IMG/VR virus record: IMGVR_UViG_3300029349_000004
Span: 1-42,046 of that record
Length of the DNA: 42,046 bases
Origin: a virus
Strand: one strand, 5' to 3'
Notes under the pieces: model-generated
The model's database searches: none
Told to the model about the DNA's origin: nothing
What the model saw: only the letters and a program-made list of their open reading frames with translations
Shown: in pieces, positions 2,029 through 41,208 of the stretch
How the letters are laid out: every line of letters begins with the position of its first letter
Numbering within the stretch: position 1 is the stretch's first letter
Position numbers and translations under genes: made by a program

Positions 2029-2825
2029 TGCTTATCTCCCGTTGGTATCTCTAGCCACCTGCGTTCAGGTTCTTTGTGCAGCTTGCTTTGTGACACAAGG
2101 ATCTTGTTGATCTGCTTTTCAATCATGCCAACTGGGTGGCATTGGTTTGCTATGAACTGGTCTTGGATCTCGAAGTATCCCTCGACGATCTTGATAGCCT
2201 GTTCTTTGCCATGGGCTTTGGTAATCCTCCCAAGTTGTCCAGCCTCAACTCCACCCACAGCCGCCTTGATTCCATACCTCTGCTCAAAAAGTTCACAGTA
2301 CCTAGCAATGACCTCATGGGTTCCAAGTTGGGGCTTTGGTTTTTTTGCCCCCTTGTGCACACTAGGTTCAGTTTGTGTATATGTATTTAGAGTAGGAGTA
2401 AGAGTAAGAGTAAGAGGATTCATTTCACATGAAGGGTCAATGAAGGGTGCATGAAGGGGTGCTTCATGTTTGCTTCGTAGAATTGACGTTTTTCCATACT
2501 TTTTCAGCCTAGCTTCAACACTTCTTTTTCCACCCTTTTTTCCATCTTCTTGCCTCTTTTTTAACCAGCCAAACTGGTCTTCACTACCCTTAATGTAATA
2601 GCCACTGTCCATTTTTTGGGCAAAGAAACATTCAATTAATGGCTCTAAACCAGCCATTAAAAACTCTTGCTCTGGAATATATTTGTGATCCTTCAGCCAG
2701 TGCTTTTGGGCAAGCAACCAAGCGTCAACCATCATACCAATCGCCTCTCTGCGACTGACCTTGTTACAAAGAGCCACAAATCTGGCGTCTGCAAATAATT
2801 TTTCTTCGATATTTATGCGAGCCAT
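2025..2825 (-). CDS. Replication initiator or helicase-loader-like protein
   Basis: The 266-residue protein starts at ATG 2825 with GAGGAAG five bases upstream; the adjacent GTG 2828 is less likely. The N-terminal 110 residues look like a winged-helix region (FADARFVALCNKVSRREAIG) of the kind found in phage replication proteins. A low-complexity linker rich in Thr, Leu and Pro (about 135-160) leads to a helical C-terminal domain. Position directly upstream of, and overlapping, the helicase gene is typical of lambda O/P- or DnaD-type initiators and loaders. No AAA motif is visible, so a DnaC-type ATPase is unlikely. Assignment rests on context and general architecture. Confidence 0.6.
   Translation of the reverse strand: MARINIEEKLFADARFVALCNKVSRREAIGMMVDAWLLAQKHWLKDHKYIPEQEFLMAGLEPLIECFFAQKMDSGYYIKGSEDQFGWLKKRQEDGKKGGKRSVEARLKKYGKTSILRSKHEAPLHAPFIDPSCEMNPLTLTLTPTLNTYTQTEPSVHKGAKKPKPQLGTHEVIARYCELFEQRYGIKAAVGGVEAGQLGRITKAHGKEQAIKIVEGYFEIQDQFIANQCHPVGMIEKQINKILVSQSKLHKEPERRWLEIPTGDKQ
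2398..2415. repeat. Hexanucleotide microsatellite inside the initiator gene
   Basis: Three tandem GTAAGA units, with a fourth degenerate copy just before, lie in the initiator gene and encode alternating Thr-Leu residues in the linker between its two domains. Such a repeat can gain or lose units in frame and so change linker length. Confidence 0.7.
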
Positions 2826-35592: not shown

Positions 35593-35890
35593 GGAAAGCT
35601 CTCCTTTGCTCTGCATTTAAAACTTCACGTTCAAAACCAAATGGATCATCAATCATAAGCTGTGACATACGAACATCATCCATCAACTCTTTGTCGATAG
35701 ATGTTGGCTTTTTAATTTCATTTGCATCTGTGAAATCACCAACTTCTTGTGAACGCTCCAAAAAGAATTCTACCTCAAACTCAGATGTCTTAATCTTACT
35801 GACTCCAAGTTTTCGACATTCATTGATAATACCAAGAAGTTTGTATCTCTTACTAGTTTCCGTATGCTTCGTTCCAAGCTTCGACTTCAT
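35573..35890 (-). CDS. Small protein between terminase and portal
   Basis: The 105-residue protein starts at ATG 35890 inside the terminase end (38-base overlap); a longer start at 35929 has no ribosome site. It contains SEFEVEF after a helical region. Small genes with that kind of segment are common between terminase and portal genes. It overlaps the portal start by 20 bases. Function unknown. Confidence 0.55.
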   Translation of the reverse strand: MKSKLGTKHTETSKRYKLLGIINECRKLGVSKIKTSEFEVEFFLERSQEVGDFTDANEIKKPTSIDKELMDDVRMSQLMIDDPFGFEREVLNAEQRRAFHEAHEN

Positions 35891-37496
35891 CTCTGAAGGC
35901 TTTCCACTCGTCTTTGTTCTCGAACTCATCCGTCATCTCTCCCCTGCGCTGTTTTAATTCCCACTGAAAATACTGATCTTTAGTCCAATCAGTATGTGGC
36001 ACATCGTCCCTATCATCATCGTCTATTTTTAAATTTGGAGCAATTTTAACAAAATCCCAAGGAATTAGCTTCAAAACATAGCGAAGAGCATCAGTTAAAT
36101 CGTCTTGGTACTTTCTGTTCTTCTCTCCAGCAGGTACAGACATCAATTCTGTCACTAACTTACGGTTATCATACACATCTCCGTCAATGGTCAAAGCACC
36201 ACTTTGAAAGAGTGTGTTGGTTATTTGTTCACCAGAGTTTCTTTGTTTGTCTGCTGGCAGGAATGGTTCTCCAGACCTGGAGGCAATAAGACCAAACTCC
36301 CTAGACTGATAATCATAGCAAGCTTGGGTAATGCTTATTCCCTGTCTAAGCTCTTTATACTTTTCGAGGATATCTTTTGCCGTAGTTTCTTCGAAATCTC
36401 CTCTCCAAGTCCTAACCACTCGTCCACGATCAAGATCAGGAGAAACAGCGACAATAACAACTGCACCAGCAGAGCGACCACGACCACCACTACCCACGTC
36501 AACACCTGCATAATACCTCCAGCTTGCGGGGATCTTCTCAGAAGCATCCATTACAGATTTATCAGGATCAAAGGTCAGATACCTTCTGCCTTCGTCTTTT
36601 ACAAACCTTCCATCAATACGTTTTAAAATCTCAGTCTGCGAAGTACAAAAGTTTTCAGCCTCTCTAATCCTTTCAGGAGTCCATGGACTAGGAGTGCCAT
36701 CGTCATAATACATACACTCCCGCATCGAGACAGAACGCTTCCAAGCATCCTTAAACATCTCTTCAGCTGTGCCAATACATTCCATAGCCCTGTACCAGAT
36801 CTGTAACCCTCTGGTGGCAGTGAATACTTGATTGAAGTAACCCCTGGTAGCTCTAAGCCTGGCCAAACACTCATTGATAATCTCCTCAGGAGCCTCCTCA
36901 TCGAAGGTCATCATTGCGACGGAGCTTGTCTGCAAGTTTACAGTCTTTTGACCATAGGATTTAAAAAATATACTGCACCCACTGCGAAAGTGTATGGCGT
37001 GGACATCACCACTCTTATATTCAATGTCCCAACCATAGTTCTCATGGTCTTTCATTGCACCACGCGGCAAAAACTCAGGCACCCACTTTTTTTCTACTTC
37101 AATCGTCGAAACACTGTCTGACGGATAAAAATACCAAAATTGCTTAGGAGGAGTCTCCCACAACTCTTTCCAAAGATTCTTATTGCATGCCCACTCAATG
37201 TTCTTACGAATTGCAGCACTGCTCTTACCAATCTGGTTAGCAGCACAAAGAAGATTCATTCTGTTGCGGGAATCAAAGAACTCTCTAGCCCATGGATAAA
37301 ATTTCCACCCGTATAGGTGCGGTAAATCTTCTCGAAGCTCTTTGATCCTTGCTTTGATAATACTCTGCTGGAAAGTTAATGGATCAAGGTTTTTCATGCG
37401 CGTCATCTCACGCGTCATCTCCTTGACCTGTCTTTCCTTAGACTTCTCTACGAAATCATCAATGCGTGCTTCGCGGCTCTGCTTCTTCTTGGCCAT
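35853..37496 (-). CDS. terL: Terminase large subunit
   Basis: The 547-residue protein starts at ATG 37496 (GAAGAGGT upstream), not TTG 37511. The ATPase has a Walker A segment (CAANQIGKSSAA, about 88-99) and Walker B (MTFDEEAPE, about 209-217). The nuclease domain has acidic residues in GVDVGSGG (about 330), ACYDYQSREF and DDLTDALRY (about 475-484). It cuts and translocates DNA into the prohead. It overlaps the small-subunit gene by 38 bases. Confidence 0.95.
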   Translation of the reverse strand: MAKKKQSREARIDDFVEKSKERQVKEMTREMTRMKNLDPLTFQQSIIKARIKELREDLPHLYGWKFYPWAREFFDSRNRMNLLCAANQIGKSSAAIRKNIEWACNKNLWKELWETPPKQFWYFYPSDSVSTIEVEKKWVPEFLPRGAMKDHENYGWDIEYKSGDVHAIHFRSGCSIFFKSYGQKTVNLQTSSVAMMTFDEEAPEEIINECLARLRATRGYFNQVFTATRGLQIWYRAMECIGTAEEMFKDAWKRSVSMRECMYYDDGTPSPWTPERIREAENFCTSQTEILKRIDGRFVKDEGRRYLTFDPDKSVMDASEKIPASWRYYAGVDVGSGGRGRSAGAVVIVAVSPDLDRGRVVRTWRGDFEETTAKDILEKYKELRQGISITQACYDYQSREFGLIASRSGEPFLPADKQRNSGEQITNTLFQSGALTIDGDVYDNRKLVTELMSVPAGEKNRKYQDDLTDALRYVLKLIPWDFVKIAPNLKIDDDDRDDVPHTDWTKDQYFQWELKQRRGEMTDEFENKDEWKAFRDEVEAWNEAYGN

Positions 37497-38346
37497 CCGT
37501 GACCTCTTCAAACTTTAGTTCAATATCAGGTAACTCTGGAATGTCTGGCATCATCATCCGCTGACCATGCCTTGTGACAGTCTCCACATCGTCCAAAATC
37601 TCTTGATTACCACTCTTGATCAAAGACTTAATGTCCCCGTCATAGTGCTTCAAATACCTATGCTGATCTCTCTTAGCCTTCTCAATCCTACGCTCTAACG
37701 TCTCAAGATCCTCTAACTGTAAACTACTAACCTGCTCCCTAAGCTGATCTACAGGTTGCTCAGAGTTGAAGTTTACATTCACAGACTTCTGCTCAACTTG
37801 CATACGCTGAACAATACCACCCTTTATACGCATATCAGCTAACTGCCATGCCTTCAAAATAAGGGTCGCTACCTTCGTATCAACCTTGCCGTCTTCACCC
37901 AACATAGGCAGATTCATAATCTCTAAAAGACGCTCAGTTCCCTTATGCAAGATATGTCTCATCTGGATCGCATAACTGACCGGAGGGGTAAATATCCAAA
38001 GCATACGCTTATTGTTAGGCTCATAGCCAGATACCCACATCTCCCAACTTACAGCACCACAAATGATCGACTGTAAAGCCATCTTCTTACCACTAGCAGT
38101 CGCAGCATTATACTCATCCCAGAACGATAACCTGACACGCTCATCCCTCTCATCAGGCTGGCACTGATTTCTAATTTCCCTCTCAGTCAACATCAATGTC
38201 CTAGGCAATTTATTACGAACACGCTCTAAGATAGGCACCAATCTAGGTGGCAATCTGTTCAATAAAGCATCTGGATTATGGGGATCATAAAGGGCTGAAA
38301 TAGCCTCATCAGGCACTACCTTTGGCCTACCTGGCTGTCTGGCCAT
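37459..38346 (-). CDS. terS: Terminase small subunit (candidate)
   Basis: The 295-residue protein precedes and overlaps the large subunit, the normal position. It has a helical N-terminal region (DERVRLSFWDEYNAATAS), a central block with WIFTPPVSYAIQMRHILHKG, and a charged C-terminal coil ending in acidic residues. This is longer than most small subunits (150-200), so the family link rests on gene order. GAGGT precedes ATG 38346. It would recognise the packaging site, perhaps the adjacent iterons. Confidence 0.65.
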   Translation of the reverse strand: MARQPGRPKVVPDEAISALYDPHNPDALLNRLPPRLVPILERVRNKLPRTLMLTEREIRNQCQPDERDERVRLSFWDEYNAATASGKKMALQSIICGAVSWEMWVSGYEPNNKRMLWIFTPPVSYAIQMRHILHKGTERLLEIMNLPMLGEDGKVDTKVATLILKAWQLADMRIKGGIVQRMQVEQKSVNVNFNSEQPVDQLREQVSSLQLEDLETLERRIEKAKRDQHRYLKHYDGDIKSLIKSGNQEILDDVETVTRHGQRMMMPDIPELPDIELKFEEVTDGQEEAEPRSTH

Positions 38347-38439: not shown

Positions 38440-38484
38440 GGGGGGGCAATGCAAATATAATTGCAAGCAGACCCCCACCCCCCC
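38440..38484. repeat. Nested G/C hairpin
   Basis: Seven G (38440-38446) can pair with C5-A-C7 (3872-84 of the same block, 38472-38484). Inside, TGCAA (38450-38454) pairs with TTGCA (38461-38465) around ATATAA. The result is a tall two-part stem next to a T6 tract. It could be an origin structure, a strong transcription block or the packaging mark. Confidence 0.55.
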
Positions 38485-38540
38485 TGTCAGTTTTCTGACA
38501 CCTGTCAGGAATCTATACAAAGTGTCCAAACTTTTGACAC
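38485..38540. repeat. TGTCAG/CTGACA and GTGTC/GACAC dyads
   Basis: TGTCAG-tttt-CTGACA-cc-TGTCAG lies at 38485-38508, giving two overlapping dyads. GTGTC (38522-38526) and GACAC (38536-38540) lie nine bases apart. TTGACA (38534-38539) is followed after 17 bases by TATCGT, a possible rightward promoter. Related motifs lie near 38919 and 40857. Confidence 0.55.
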
Positions 38541-38592
38541 CTGATCTAAGTGGCTGATATCGTTTACCTTTGCTTCAACCTCCTGATATCGC

Positions 38593-38690
38593 TAGTGATT
38601 GCTAGTGATTGCAACCTCAACCATATGATTGCAAACGGTATGCCAAAGCGCGATTGCGATTGCAACCCAATGATATGATTGCCAAACGCT
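38593..38690. repeat. GATTGC iteron array
   Basis: Six copies of GATTGC lie at 38597, 38607, 38627, 38652, 38658 and 38677. The first two form a tandem TAGTGATTGC repeat. The block GATTGCAACC...ATATGATTGC(C)AAACG occurs twice about 50 bases apart, an imperfect duplication. Iteron clusters of this kind mark replication origins and packaging sites. Confidence 0.75.
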
Positions 38691-38918
38691 ATTAGTGGTG
38701 GTGTGCACAAAAAGATACGTTTTCATTTAACATATGTTTATTGAACGCTGGCGGGTGACTGGCACAAAACACATATCGTTTTAAAGGGCAAAAACCTCAA
38801 ATCTGAGAGCCTAGAGATCTTTGTGGGTGTCTGAGGTGGGCGGATATCTTTTGATCGCTTAAAAGCACACTTTTGCGTGTCTTGCGCGGTGACTCCATAC
38901 CTTTACCACCACACCCAA

Positions 38919-38946
38919 AGTGTCAAACCTTTGTACAGTGTCCACC
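38919..38946. repeat. GTGTCAAA motif pair
   Basis: CAAAGTGTCAAACCTTTG (38919-38935) is an imperfect dyad and GTGTCC follows at 38938. On the minus strand this gives TTTGACACTTTG, matching copies at 38513-38530 and 40868-40885. Confidence 0.5.
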
Positions 38947-38954
38947 TTTTATAC

Positions 38955-38977
38955 ACAAAAGCCGCCCATTGGGCGGC
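38955..38977 (-). terminator. Rho-independent terminator of the leftward small-gene operon
   Basis: GCCGCCC-att-GGGCGGC (38961-38977) is a perfect seven-base stem with a three-base loop, followed on the minus strand by TTTTGTGTATAAAA. It lies 28 bases after the last gene of the operon (39005). Confidence 0.85.
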
Positions 38978-39004
38978 CTCAGTGTCCTTGATGTTTATCT
39001 TTTC

Positions 39005-39229
39005 TCAGTACTCGTACCACGCCATTATTCTAACACACGCTCCTTTAAGATCGATAGCTCTCATATCTCCGCTCTCACAGGTCACCCTGTGCTTCACCTT
39101 GATCCCTTGATCTCTTTTGAACCTCCTGAGAGCTTGTTTAAGATCTTTGGACTGTGTGTCCTCAGCTTTTACCACCCATGAGTAGTTGCTCTCACCGCCA
39201 AATGTGTCCGTCATCTCAACCTTGATCAT
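39005..39229 (-). CDS. Small protein 6 of the leftward operon
   Basis: The 74-residue protein starts at ATG 39229 behind AGGAGGTTTGAT; a longer start at 39271 lacks a site. The protein is charged, with a QALRRFKRDQG helix and a single cysteine pair. Last gene before the terminator. Not recognised. Confidence 0.6.
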   Translation of the reverse strand: MIKVEMTDTFGGESNYSWVVKAEDTQSKDLKQALRRFKRDQGIKVKHRVTCESGDMRAIDLKGACVRIMAWYEY

Positions 39230-39230
39230 A

Positions 39231-39416
39231 TCAAACCTCCTTTGAGATCGCGGAGTGAAGATATCTCTCATGAATTGAAGTTTCTTTTCCGTTTATCTCT
39301 ATTAAATAAACTGAACCATCAATGTGGGTCTCTCCTAAAAACTCAATGACACTACCAAAAAATTTTTTCCTTTTGTCTCCATAAACAAAAATTTTTTCTC
39401 CAGCTTCAAATTTCAT
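39231..39416 (-). CDS. Small protein 5 of the leftward operon
   Basis: The 61-residue protein has beta-strand character (KIFVYGDKRKKFFGSVIEFL) resembling a small SH3/Tudor-like barrel. Same ribosome site AGGAGGTTTGATATG as its neighbours. Unrecognised. Confidence 0.55.
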   Translation of the reverse strand: MKFEAGEKIFVYGDKRKKFFGSVIEFLGETHIDGSVYLIEINGKETSIHERYLHSAISKEV

Positions 39417-39426
39417 ATCAAACCTC

Positions 39427-39735
39427 CTAATTTTTTACTAAACACTCTCTCAACACTCTCATCTCATCATCCCATGATTGCCCACACACATACTCAATGG
39501 ATCGATCGCCTATCATCAAGCGATCATAGATACCGTGGTTTTTAAGCAGTGCCAACGGTAGCGCCAAACGTCTTTTAAGCCGCTTTTTAGTGTCTTGACG
39601 GCAACGATAACCAATCATCGAAATGATCATATCAATCTGCTGATGTGAGAGCATATGTGTCATGATCTCATCAATGTACTGTGTGTGTGGTTGATCCTTT
39701 TTTGCGTCCCATATGCGATCGCTTAAAGATCTCAT
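39427..39735 (-). CDS. Small protein 4 of the leftward operon
   Basis: The 102-residue protein is helical with a basic centre (CRQDTKKRLKRRLALPLALL). The start follows GAGGAGGTTTTTAT and overlaps the upstream gene by four bases. No family recognised. Confidence 0.6.
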   Translation of the reverse strand: MRSLSDRIWDAKKDQPHTQYIDEIMTHMLSHQQIDMIISMIGYRCRQDTKKRLKRRLALPLALLKNHGIYDRLMIGDRSIEYVCGQSWDDEMRVLRECLVKN

Positions 39736-39983
39736 ATAAAAACCTCCTCAGCGATCCCTGATGGCAAAAGTGTCCTCATAGTCAAACCTTCAACTGAATC
39801 ATCCACAAGATATGGTATGATCCGCACAGATAAAACCTCTCTCAATTTGTATTTTTCGATAAAAGCTTTTGCTTCAACGACCGGGTCGCCACCCACAAAC
39901 TTCACTTCAAACCTCTCCATTTTCCTCTTCCTAGGTGCTTTTGCTCTAAACACCAAGTACTTTTGCTCTTTCATATCTCTCAT
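39732..39983 (-). CDS. Small protein 3 of the leftward operon
   Basis: The 83-residue protein has a basic N-terminus (FRAKAPRKRKMERFEVKFVGG) and a small alpha/beta C-terminal half. AGGAGGTTTGAT precedes ATG 39983, in turn preceded by CTGATATC. Overlaps the neighbour gene by four bases. Unrecognised. Confidence 0.6.
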   Translation of the reverse strand: MRDMKEQKYLVFRAKAPRKRKMERFEVKFVGGDPVVEAKAFIEKYKLREVLSVRIIPYLVDDSVEGLTMRTLLPSGIAEEVFI

Positions 39984-40579
39984 ATCAAACCTCCTGATAT
40001 CAGTTGTAGTTTTGTTTTTTCCGGTACTGGTGGTGTTTTTTTCACTTGGTCACTGAGAAGATCATGGTCAATGCACAGATACCAACGGCCATATCCCATA
40101 TCCACGGTCATATATGATGATAAAGAGCCATCTGAGTTAGTGTCTAAGTGTGCAAACCTCCTCACTTGATCAATCACATATTTGATTTCCTCAGCGGTGA
40201 GATCGCTCAAACCTTCAATGTGATCAATACAAACCTCTTGCTCTCTTACTTGCACTGAGCAAACTTCATATGAGATCGCTCTATATGAGTCCTCAAAGCT
40301 GAGTGTGCAGATCTCTCTGATCTTTTGTGCAGCGGTCTTTTTATCAAGCTTGATGATAGCTTTTAGGTATGCCATCTCTTCATCTGATATGTCGCGCTCA
40401 AGCTCACGGCTATTTCTGATGCAATCTTCAACCATATGCATCATCTCACCTCCATATCCAATGGAGTCCACATACTCAGCAATAGGGTTGCTCTCATCTT
40501 TAGTGTAATAGCTCTCAGTCCAATCTGCCTCAGCTCTCAATTGCTCCACGATTGCGTCAAGTTTTTCCTCATTTATCAT
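39980..40579 (-). CDS. Largest protein of the leftward operon, 199 residues
   Basis: The acidic protein has helical first two-thirds and a short Cys-containing C-terminus (DMGYGRWYLCIDHDLLSD). It contains no signal peptide or recognised motif. TAGGAGGTGGCC precedes ATG 40579 and it overlaps both neighbours by four bases. Probably a regulatory or anti-host early protein by context. Confidence 0.6.
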   Translation of the reverse strand: MINEEKLDAIVEQLRAEADWTESYYTKDESNPIAEYVDSIGYGGEMMHMVEDCIRNSRELERDISDEEMAYLKAIIKLDKKTAAQKIREICTLSFEDSYRAISYEVCSVQVREQEVCIDHIEGLSDLTAEEIKYVIDQVRRFAHLDTNSDGSLSSYMTVDMGYGRWYLCIDHDLLSDQVKKTPPVPEKTKLQLISGGLI

Positions 40580-40773
40580 TGGCCACCTCCTAAAAGTGTT
40601 TTTTCTGTGCCGCGCACCTTTATCGTCATATGCAAAGCTTTTGCCACCCTCCAGGCCGTGCCGTTGAGCGTCTTAACACCCAAAGCTTCACACAGTGCTT
40701 TTGAAGCTTCACAGTCCGGATAAAGCATATCGTTGCCATAAACACATTTTTCGATCACATAAACGGTCGTCAT
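40576..40773 (-). CDS. Small protein 1 of the leftward operon
   Basis: The 65-residue protein is small, mixed fold with three cysteines and an ASKALCEALG helix. It is the first gene after the non-coding region. CAGGAGGTGTCAT precedes ATG 40773. Unrecognised. Confidence 0.6.
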   Translation of the reverse strand: MTTVYVIEKCVYGNDMLYPDCEASKALCEALGVKTLNGTAWRVAKALHMTIKVRGTEKTLLGGGQ

Positions 40774-40856
40774 ATGACACCTCCTGATTAAAATGTGTGC
40801 ATATGCCGTGCCATATCATAAAAATCAATGGGTTATGTTTATTACCAGTGGGCCAG

Positions 40857-40913
40857 GTGTCAGCTTTTTTGACACTTTGTATAATATTTTTACAGTGTTA
40901 GGTTTTTTGACAC
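40857..40913. repeat. Two matching GTGTYA/TGACAC dyads
   Basis: GTGTCA-gcttttt-TGACAC (40857-40875) and GTGTTA-ggttttt-TGACAC (40895-40913) have the same seven-base T-rich spacer. Start points are 38 bases apart with TATAAT between. The pair looks like operator sites for one dimeric protein, matching copies in the 38485-38540 region. Confidence 0.6.
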
Positions 40914-40951
40914 CCATATATAGGCGTCTGGAAAAAACCCCCTATAGGGCT

Positions 40952-41003
40952 ATTTGGAAATTTGAAATTTGGTTTTTGAAAATCCAAAATCCAATTTGGA
41001 AAT
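40952..41003. repeat. Phased A/T tracts with repeated ATTTGGAAAT
   Basis: ATTTGGAAAT occurs at 40952-40961 and 40994-41003, and A3-A5 or T3-T5 tracts between them recur at about ten-base intervals. Such phasing usually gives curved DNA. A TCCAATTTGGA palindrome lies at 40990-41000. Confidence 0.5.
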
Positions 41004-41208
41004 CTATCTGAGACAAAGACACCCAATTTAAAAGCCCTCAGACTGGCCTAGAATCTCACAGAATATCTTTCTAATACCTAGACTCCAAAAACATTTAAAA
41101 CGCGCCAGAATTGATTTAAACGATTGCAAAATATTGCCCCATAAGAAGTGCCTATGTTTACAGCGATCTGTGCTAACATTGGGCAACCAACACAAGGAGG
41201 CCGCCATA

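Follow-up and report, generated by a model that had tools for sequence, protein, structure and literature searches.

A lineage-private GATTGC repeat block within a conserved, candidate packaging and late-control locus upstream of the terminase genes of an uncultured phage

What does a dense cluster of short direct repeats do when it lies next to the terminase genes of a phage? The DNA that raised this question (the window, 42,046 nucleotides) is a phage record from IMG/VR and assembles into a circle, with a 98-bp exact end repeat and a unit of 41,947 bp. A first-pass annotation had reported six GATTGC copies in 86 bases, a 10-bp tandem repeat and a duplicated 50-base unit, all 250 bases upstream of a small terminase gene and adjoining a hairpin, and had proposed that the site was either a packaging signal or a replication origin. 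Judged by comparison with relatives, the GATTGC repeat is real, yet private to one phage lineage. The region around it appears to matter more than the repeat, and what is conserved in it is not GATTGC but a G-tract, a palindrome and dyad sites. The repeat block and the two genes downstream of it are located as follows.

38593–38694, plus strand: GATTGC block, two diverged units of ∼47 to 52 bp (38593–38644 and 38648–38694) with three GATTGC copies apiece.
37459–38346, minus strand: ORF of 295 aa at the head of the late operon, the putative small terminase by its position.
35853–37511, minus strand: terminase large subunit (TerL), PHROG 2.

All six copies read on the plus strand within 38597–38682 (at 38597, 38607, 38627, 38652, 38658, and 38677) and form the densest same-strand hexamer cluster of the genome; no genome simulated under a Markov-1 model (100 + 400 runs) had more than four. 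Over the whole window the hexamer occurs 32 times versus 29.4 expected, which is about chance level. The 10-bp tandem was found as GCTAGTGATT ×2.2 at 38591–38612. The duplication of a ∼50-bp unit was confirmed by alignment, with three gaps (TAGT, T, and C) and a score of 46.5 compared to a maximum of 32 among 3,000 simulated pairs. The adjoining hairpin is a G/C hairpin at 38440–38484 (z = −2.7). The distance to the gene also held, the first GATTGC copy being 251 bases from where the ORF at 37459–38346 starts; the identity of that gene as a small terminase (TerS) is putative and by position only. This ORF overlaps TerL by 53 bases, and its product had no significant family, PDB, or fold match. 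A first structure model was poor, and a second of moderate quality (pLDDT 69, from 45 sequences) matched no PDB or BFVD entry significantly. TerS relatives were taken from viral contigs. Among cultured phages there was no close relative; the one similarity was a TerL stretch of 24% identity in Arthrobacter phages, and a scan of bacterial genomes with TerL returned no match.

Do phages with nearly the same terminase keep the repeat? Three relatives (L001 to L003) have a 99% identical putative TerS, differing by substitutions at 3 of 295 residues (L003 aligned), and no plus-strand-sense GATTGC upstream of it. More distant TerS relatives likewise have no copy of that sense in the upstream non-coding region. 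The hairpin loops of L004, L005, and L007 each have a single reverse-strand GCAATC, which L006 also has once, and the duplicated unit had no match in the other viral contigs searched (IMG/VR). Absence of the repeats from close relatives, which the first-pass annotation had itself named as grounds for abandoning its proposal, is thus what we observed, and GATTGC was rejected as a conserved iteron. The annotation had also cited a copy at 41122, in the other non-coding region, in support of protein binding. The sequence GATTGCAAA is present there but is not conserved; three relatives have GATTCCAA or GTTCCAA in its place, though the surrounding stretch is conserved overall. A second candidate iteron, TGATATCRYTK, occurs four times, at corresponding positions, in the closest relatives and is weaker or absent farther out; we do not claim it.

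An alignment of seven lineages placed only two of the six GATTGC copies within conserved elements.

38624–38645, plus strand: conserved element TATnATTGCA-N8-TGCCA, holding copy 3 (38627).
38671–38684, plus strand: conserved element TGATATnATTGnCA, holding copy 6 (38677).

At both elements the relatives mostly have CATTG rather than GATTGC, and the remaining four copies are private to the window, as insertions or replacements. The motifs ATTGCA/TTGCAA are enriched in this region in eight of eight clade genomes, these being homologous sequences and not independent. By alignment, the block arose from ancestral ATTGC-bearing elements through duplication of a ∼50-bp unit and extension by short tandem copies. 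On our preferred reading it is a lineage-private elaboration of spacer DNA; the non-coding locus that contains it is conserved and lies ahead of the terS-terL-portal operon.

Could the block simply be neutral? Slippage during replication, together with duplication, in non-coding DNA free of constraint would produce 10-bp and 6-bp tandem units such as those seen here, in one phage only, and different short repeats lie in or beside the same region in relatives (CGCAAAC in L005, AGAATGG in G002, and GGGAATAG in G009). Two points speak against this explanation: the presence of two copies within conserved elements, and the finding that the differences between the duplicated units all fall outside the six GATTGC, which is suggestive only, the motif having been chosen post hoc. 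On balance we put neutrality somewhat below an even chance. It bears on the block only and could hold under either view of the locus given below, so that our confidences in the several readings are not mutually exclusive. The GATTGC copies themselves probably constitute no specific signal; at most, they may affect bending or supply weak extra copies of the conserved TTGCA element.

Which parts of the locus, then, have been kept? The sequences below recur in relatives or link the locus to the early control region.

38471–38484, minus strand: G-tract, reading GGGGGGGTGGGGGT on the coding strand of terS; no other piece of the locus is conserved as deeply.
38440–38484, minus strand: hairpin of G-tract, TTGCAA, and C-tract (coding strand GGGGGGGTGGGGGT...TTGC...CCCCCCC).
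38485–38500, no strand assigned: perfect dyad TGTCAGTTTTCTGACA next to the G-tract, with conservation in the close clade.
38522–38540, no strand assigned: perfect dyad GTGTC-N9-GACAC, with one-mismatch copies at 38877 and 38938.
38720–38747, no strand assigned: 28-bp palindrome, consensus CGTTCAnnnnACAnnnGTnnnTTGAACG.
40857–40875, no strand assigned: perfect dyad GTGTC-N9-GACAC in the early control region, with a one-mismatch copy at 40895.

The G-tract takes the form GGGGGG(T)GGGGG in relatives (L014 to L125) and is kept down to ∼40% TerL identity. It was present on the coding strand at 26 of 39 loci of TerL relatives, 600 to 1,500 bp ahead of TerL; the expectation from the rest of the same loci is ∼0.015 per locus, or ∼0.6 over all 39, a comparison whose significance is overstated by the relatedness of the sequences. 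On the opposite strand, a tract at the corresponding distance was found at only 2 of the 39, and at least 10 of these loci have no G-tract. The tract precedes TerS and not TerL: in L030, where TerS lies 2.5 kb from TerL, it stays upstream of TerS. In three further loci (L108, L078, and L088) it lies 0.5 to 1.3 kb upstream of TerS with another ORF in between. A literature search with the G-tract string found no phage packaging paper.

A scan for the exact palindrome across 2.9 million viral contigs returned seven matches, six of them upstream of TerS-TerL relatives, and TerS relatives bearing the palindrome reach down to 30% TerS identity. In nearly every clade genome, TerS is preceded by a single G-tract and a single palindrome. 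The seventh contig (L052/G019, 46.9 kb) has no recognizable TerL of this family, and its palindrome lies near a GTGGTCCA repeat array at the contig end (coordinates position 367 and 46730–46904). Beside the palindrome in the window (38685–38706) is an element, CACCACTAATAGCG, which we compared at the equivalent position in L001 to L006 and L008; in the window and L008 it is inverted relative to L001 to L004 and L006.

The dyad GTGTC-N9-GACAC occurs five times in the window, always within its two control regions, compared to 0.86 copies expected genome-wide, and it is present in both control regions of four relatives as well (G001, G007, G008, and G009). By this distribution, the two non-coding regions are connected by the dyad and not by GATTGC; the dyad is likely the operator of a phage regulator.

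The DNA between the two control regions has features of its own. The stretch 38602–40928 is a private early module whose ORFs are small and leftward. By blastn it resembled none of the clade relatives compared; it is a swapped cassette whose edge lies at the GATTGC block. Beyond it, at 40928–41003, an A/T-rich inverted-repeat stretch of the early control region retains ∼79% identity even in G003, where the neighboring DNA is not alignable. A 199-aa early protein had no homologues among the sequences searched, and Rfam and tRNA scans gave no match.

Could the locus serve late-operon control only, with packaging starting elsewhere? It would then comprise a promoter, repressor or activator sites, and a 5′ leader hairpin, and the GATTGC copies would be operator sites for a regulator from the private early module. 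The position also suits a pure late-promoter/operator region, lying between a terminator-like hairpin of the early operon (38953–38985) and the first late gene. The dyads shared with the early control region fit such a role, and the dissimilarity of the adjoining module from relatives would explain private sites. On the other hand, promoter-like matches were at chance level, no DNA-binding family was recognized among the module proteins, and a coding-strand G-tract so deeply conserved is unlike promoter or operator sequences. We regard control alone as less likely than not.

Our preferred reading, to which we give about an even chance, is that the locus combines a pac-like packaging-initiation site with the late-operon control region in a clade of uncultured phages, and that GATTGC is a lineage-private elaboration of it. 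The packaging function is one that we infer from comparison. The terminase would assemble on the locus, with the G-tract as the likeliest cut or recognition determinant and the palindrome and TTGCA elements as accessory sites; the GTGTC-N9-GACAC/TGTCA dyads would bind a regulator common to the early control region. Circular assemblies were obtained for the window and G003; some long contigs run through the locus and others end elsewhere, a pattern that headful packaging would permit. One contig (L006) ends within the palindrome. Contig ends were dropped as evidence for a terminus; several contig starts cluster 217 to 314 bp upstream of the G-tract but share no sequence.

How does this arrangement compare with known packaging sites? 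In the Bacillus phage SPP1, pac spans promoters and the start of the small terminase gene (PMC4737164). The boxA repeats of SPP1 are missing from the pac of SF6, which has a different repeat pair, and the two terminases are exchangeable, their DNA-binding domain having little sequence preference (PMC4737164). Private repeats are thus compatible with a packaging role for the region. The locus resembles these pac sites in layout, with a non-coding region at the start of the putative small terminase gene and sets of direct repeats that vary among relatives, but its conserved pieces are the G-tract and the 28-bp palindrome, and we claim no sequence similarity. The overhang of lambda cosN, a cut site directly upstream of terS, is G-rich on the coding strand, as is the G-tract here. 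The cut site of HK97 cos has that same position relative to terS (PMC11331095). Unlike those systems, the locus is read through by contigs and lies in two circular assemblies, with no fixed end seen, and no cosB-like repeats were identified at it.

The earlier suggestion of a packaging signal stands in part. A special non-coding region does precede the terminase genes; GATTGC as the carrier of the signal does not survive. The six copies, 250 bp ahead of the gene, together with the known existence of repeat-bearing pac sites (SPP1, PMC4737164), would favor GATTGC as the sequence-specific recognition sites (pac/cosB) of the small terminase. However, a TerS with 3 of 295 residues substituted serves phages without any GATTGC there, and a specific terminase target is, on this comparison, strongly disfavored and very improbable.

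Is the block instead an origin of replication? In lambda-type origins, the iterons lie in the O gene. The GATTGC block resembles these in having tandem iterons of similar size, but in this phage the lambda-type layout is found elsewhere.

2428–2458, minus strand: alternative origin candidate, 11-bp iterons of the ATGAAGGGTGC type, inside the O-like gene 2025–2828.

The gene at 2025–2828 is just upstream of dnaB and O-like by position. It carries tandem 11-bp repeats in its middle, as does the equivalent gene of two other lineages (ATGAAGGG ×3 in the window, AACCATCGGAG ×3 in G001, and GACCACAATCA ×4 to 5 in G003). The sequence of these iterons (window 2389–2458) is lineage-specific. They are likely lambda-type replication origins in all three lineages, by analogy of layout, and the array in the O-like gene is a better origin candidate than the GATTGC block. 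Cumulative GC skew, which had been suggested as a check, has no minimum at 38.6 kb; its minima at 41.4 to 41.6 kb coincide with the switch of transcription strand, so that gene orientation confounds them and skew cannot decide the origin. Direct repeats in non-coding DNA notwithstanding, GATTGC as initiator-binding iterons is the least probable of the readings considered, given the array in the O-like gene, the lack of a skew minimum at the block, and the failure of GATTGC to be conserved with or near an initiator gene.

More tentatively, and with less confidence than in the pac-plus-control reading itself, we propose that the G-tract GGGGGG(T)GGGGG and the 28-bp palindrome make up, upstream of terS, a previously undescribed packaging-initiation signal common to uncultured tailed phages of one large clade, and that private repeat arrays evolve fast between or beside these two parts. 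The case repeats, by sequence comparison, the lesson of SPP1 and SF6 that eye-catching repeats on the terS side are not conserved along with the terminase. It is rare for a packaging signal to be located in an uncultured phage, and a short clade-wide signature would make it possible to deduce packaging strategy from metagenomic contigs.
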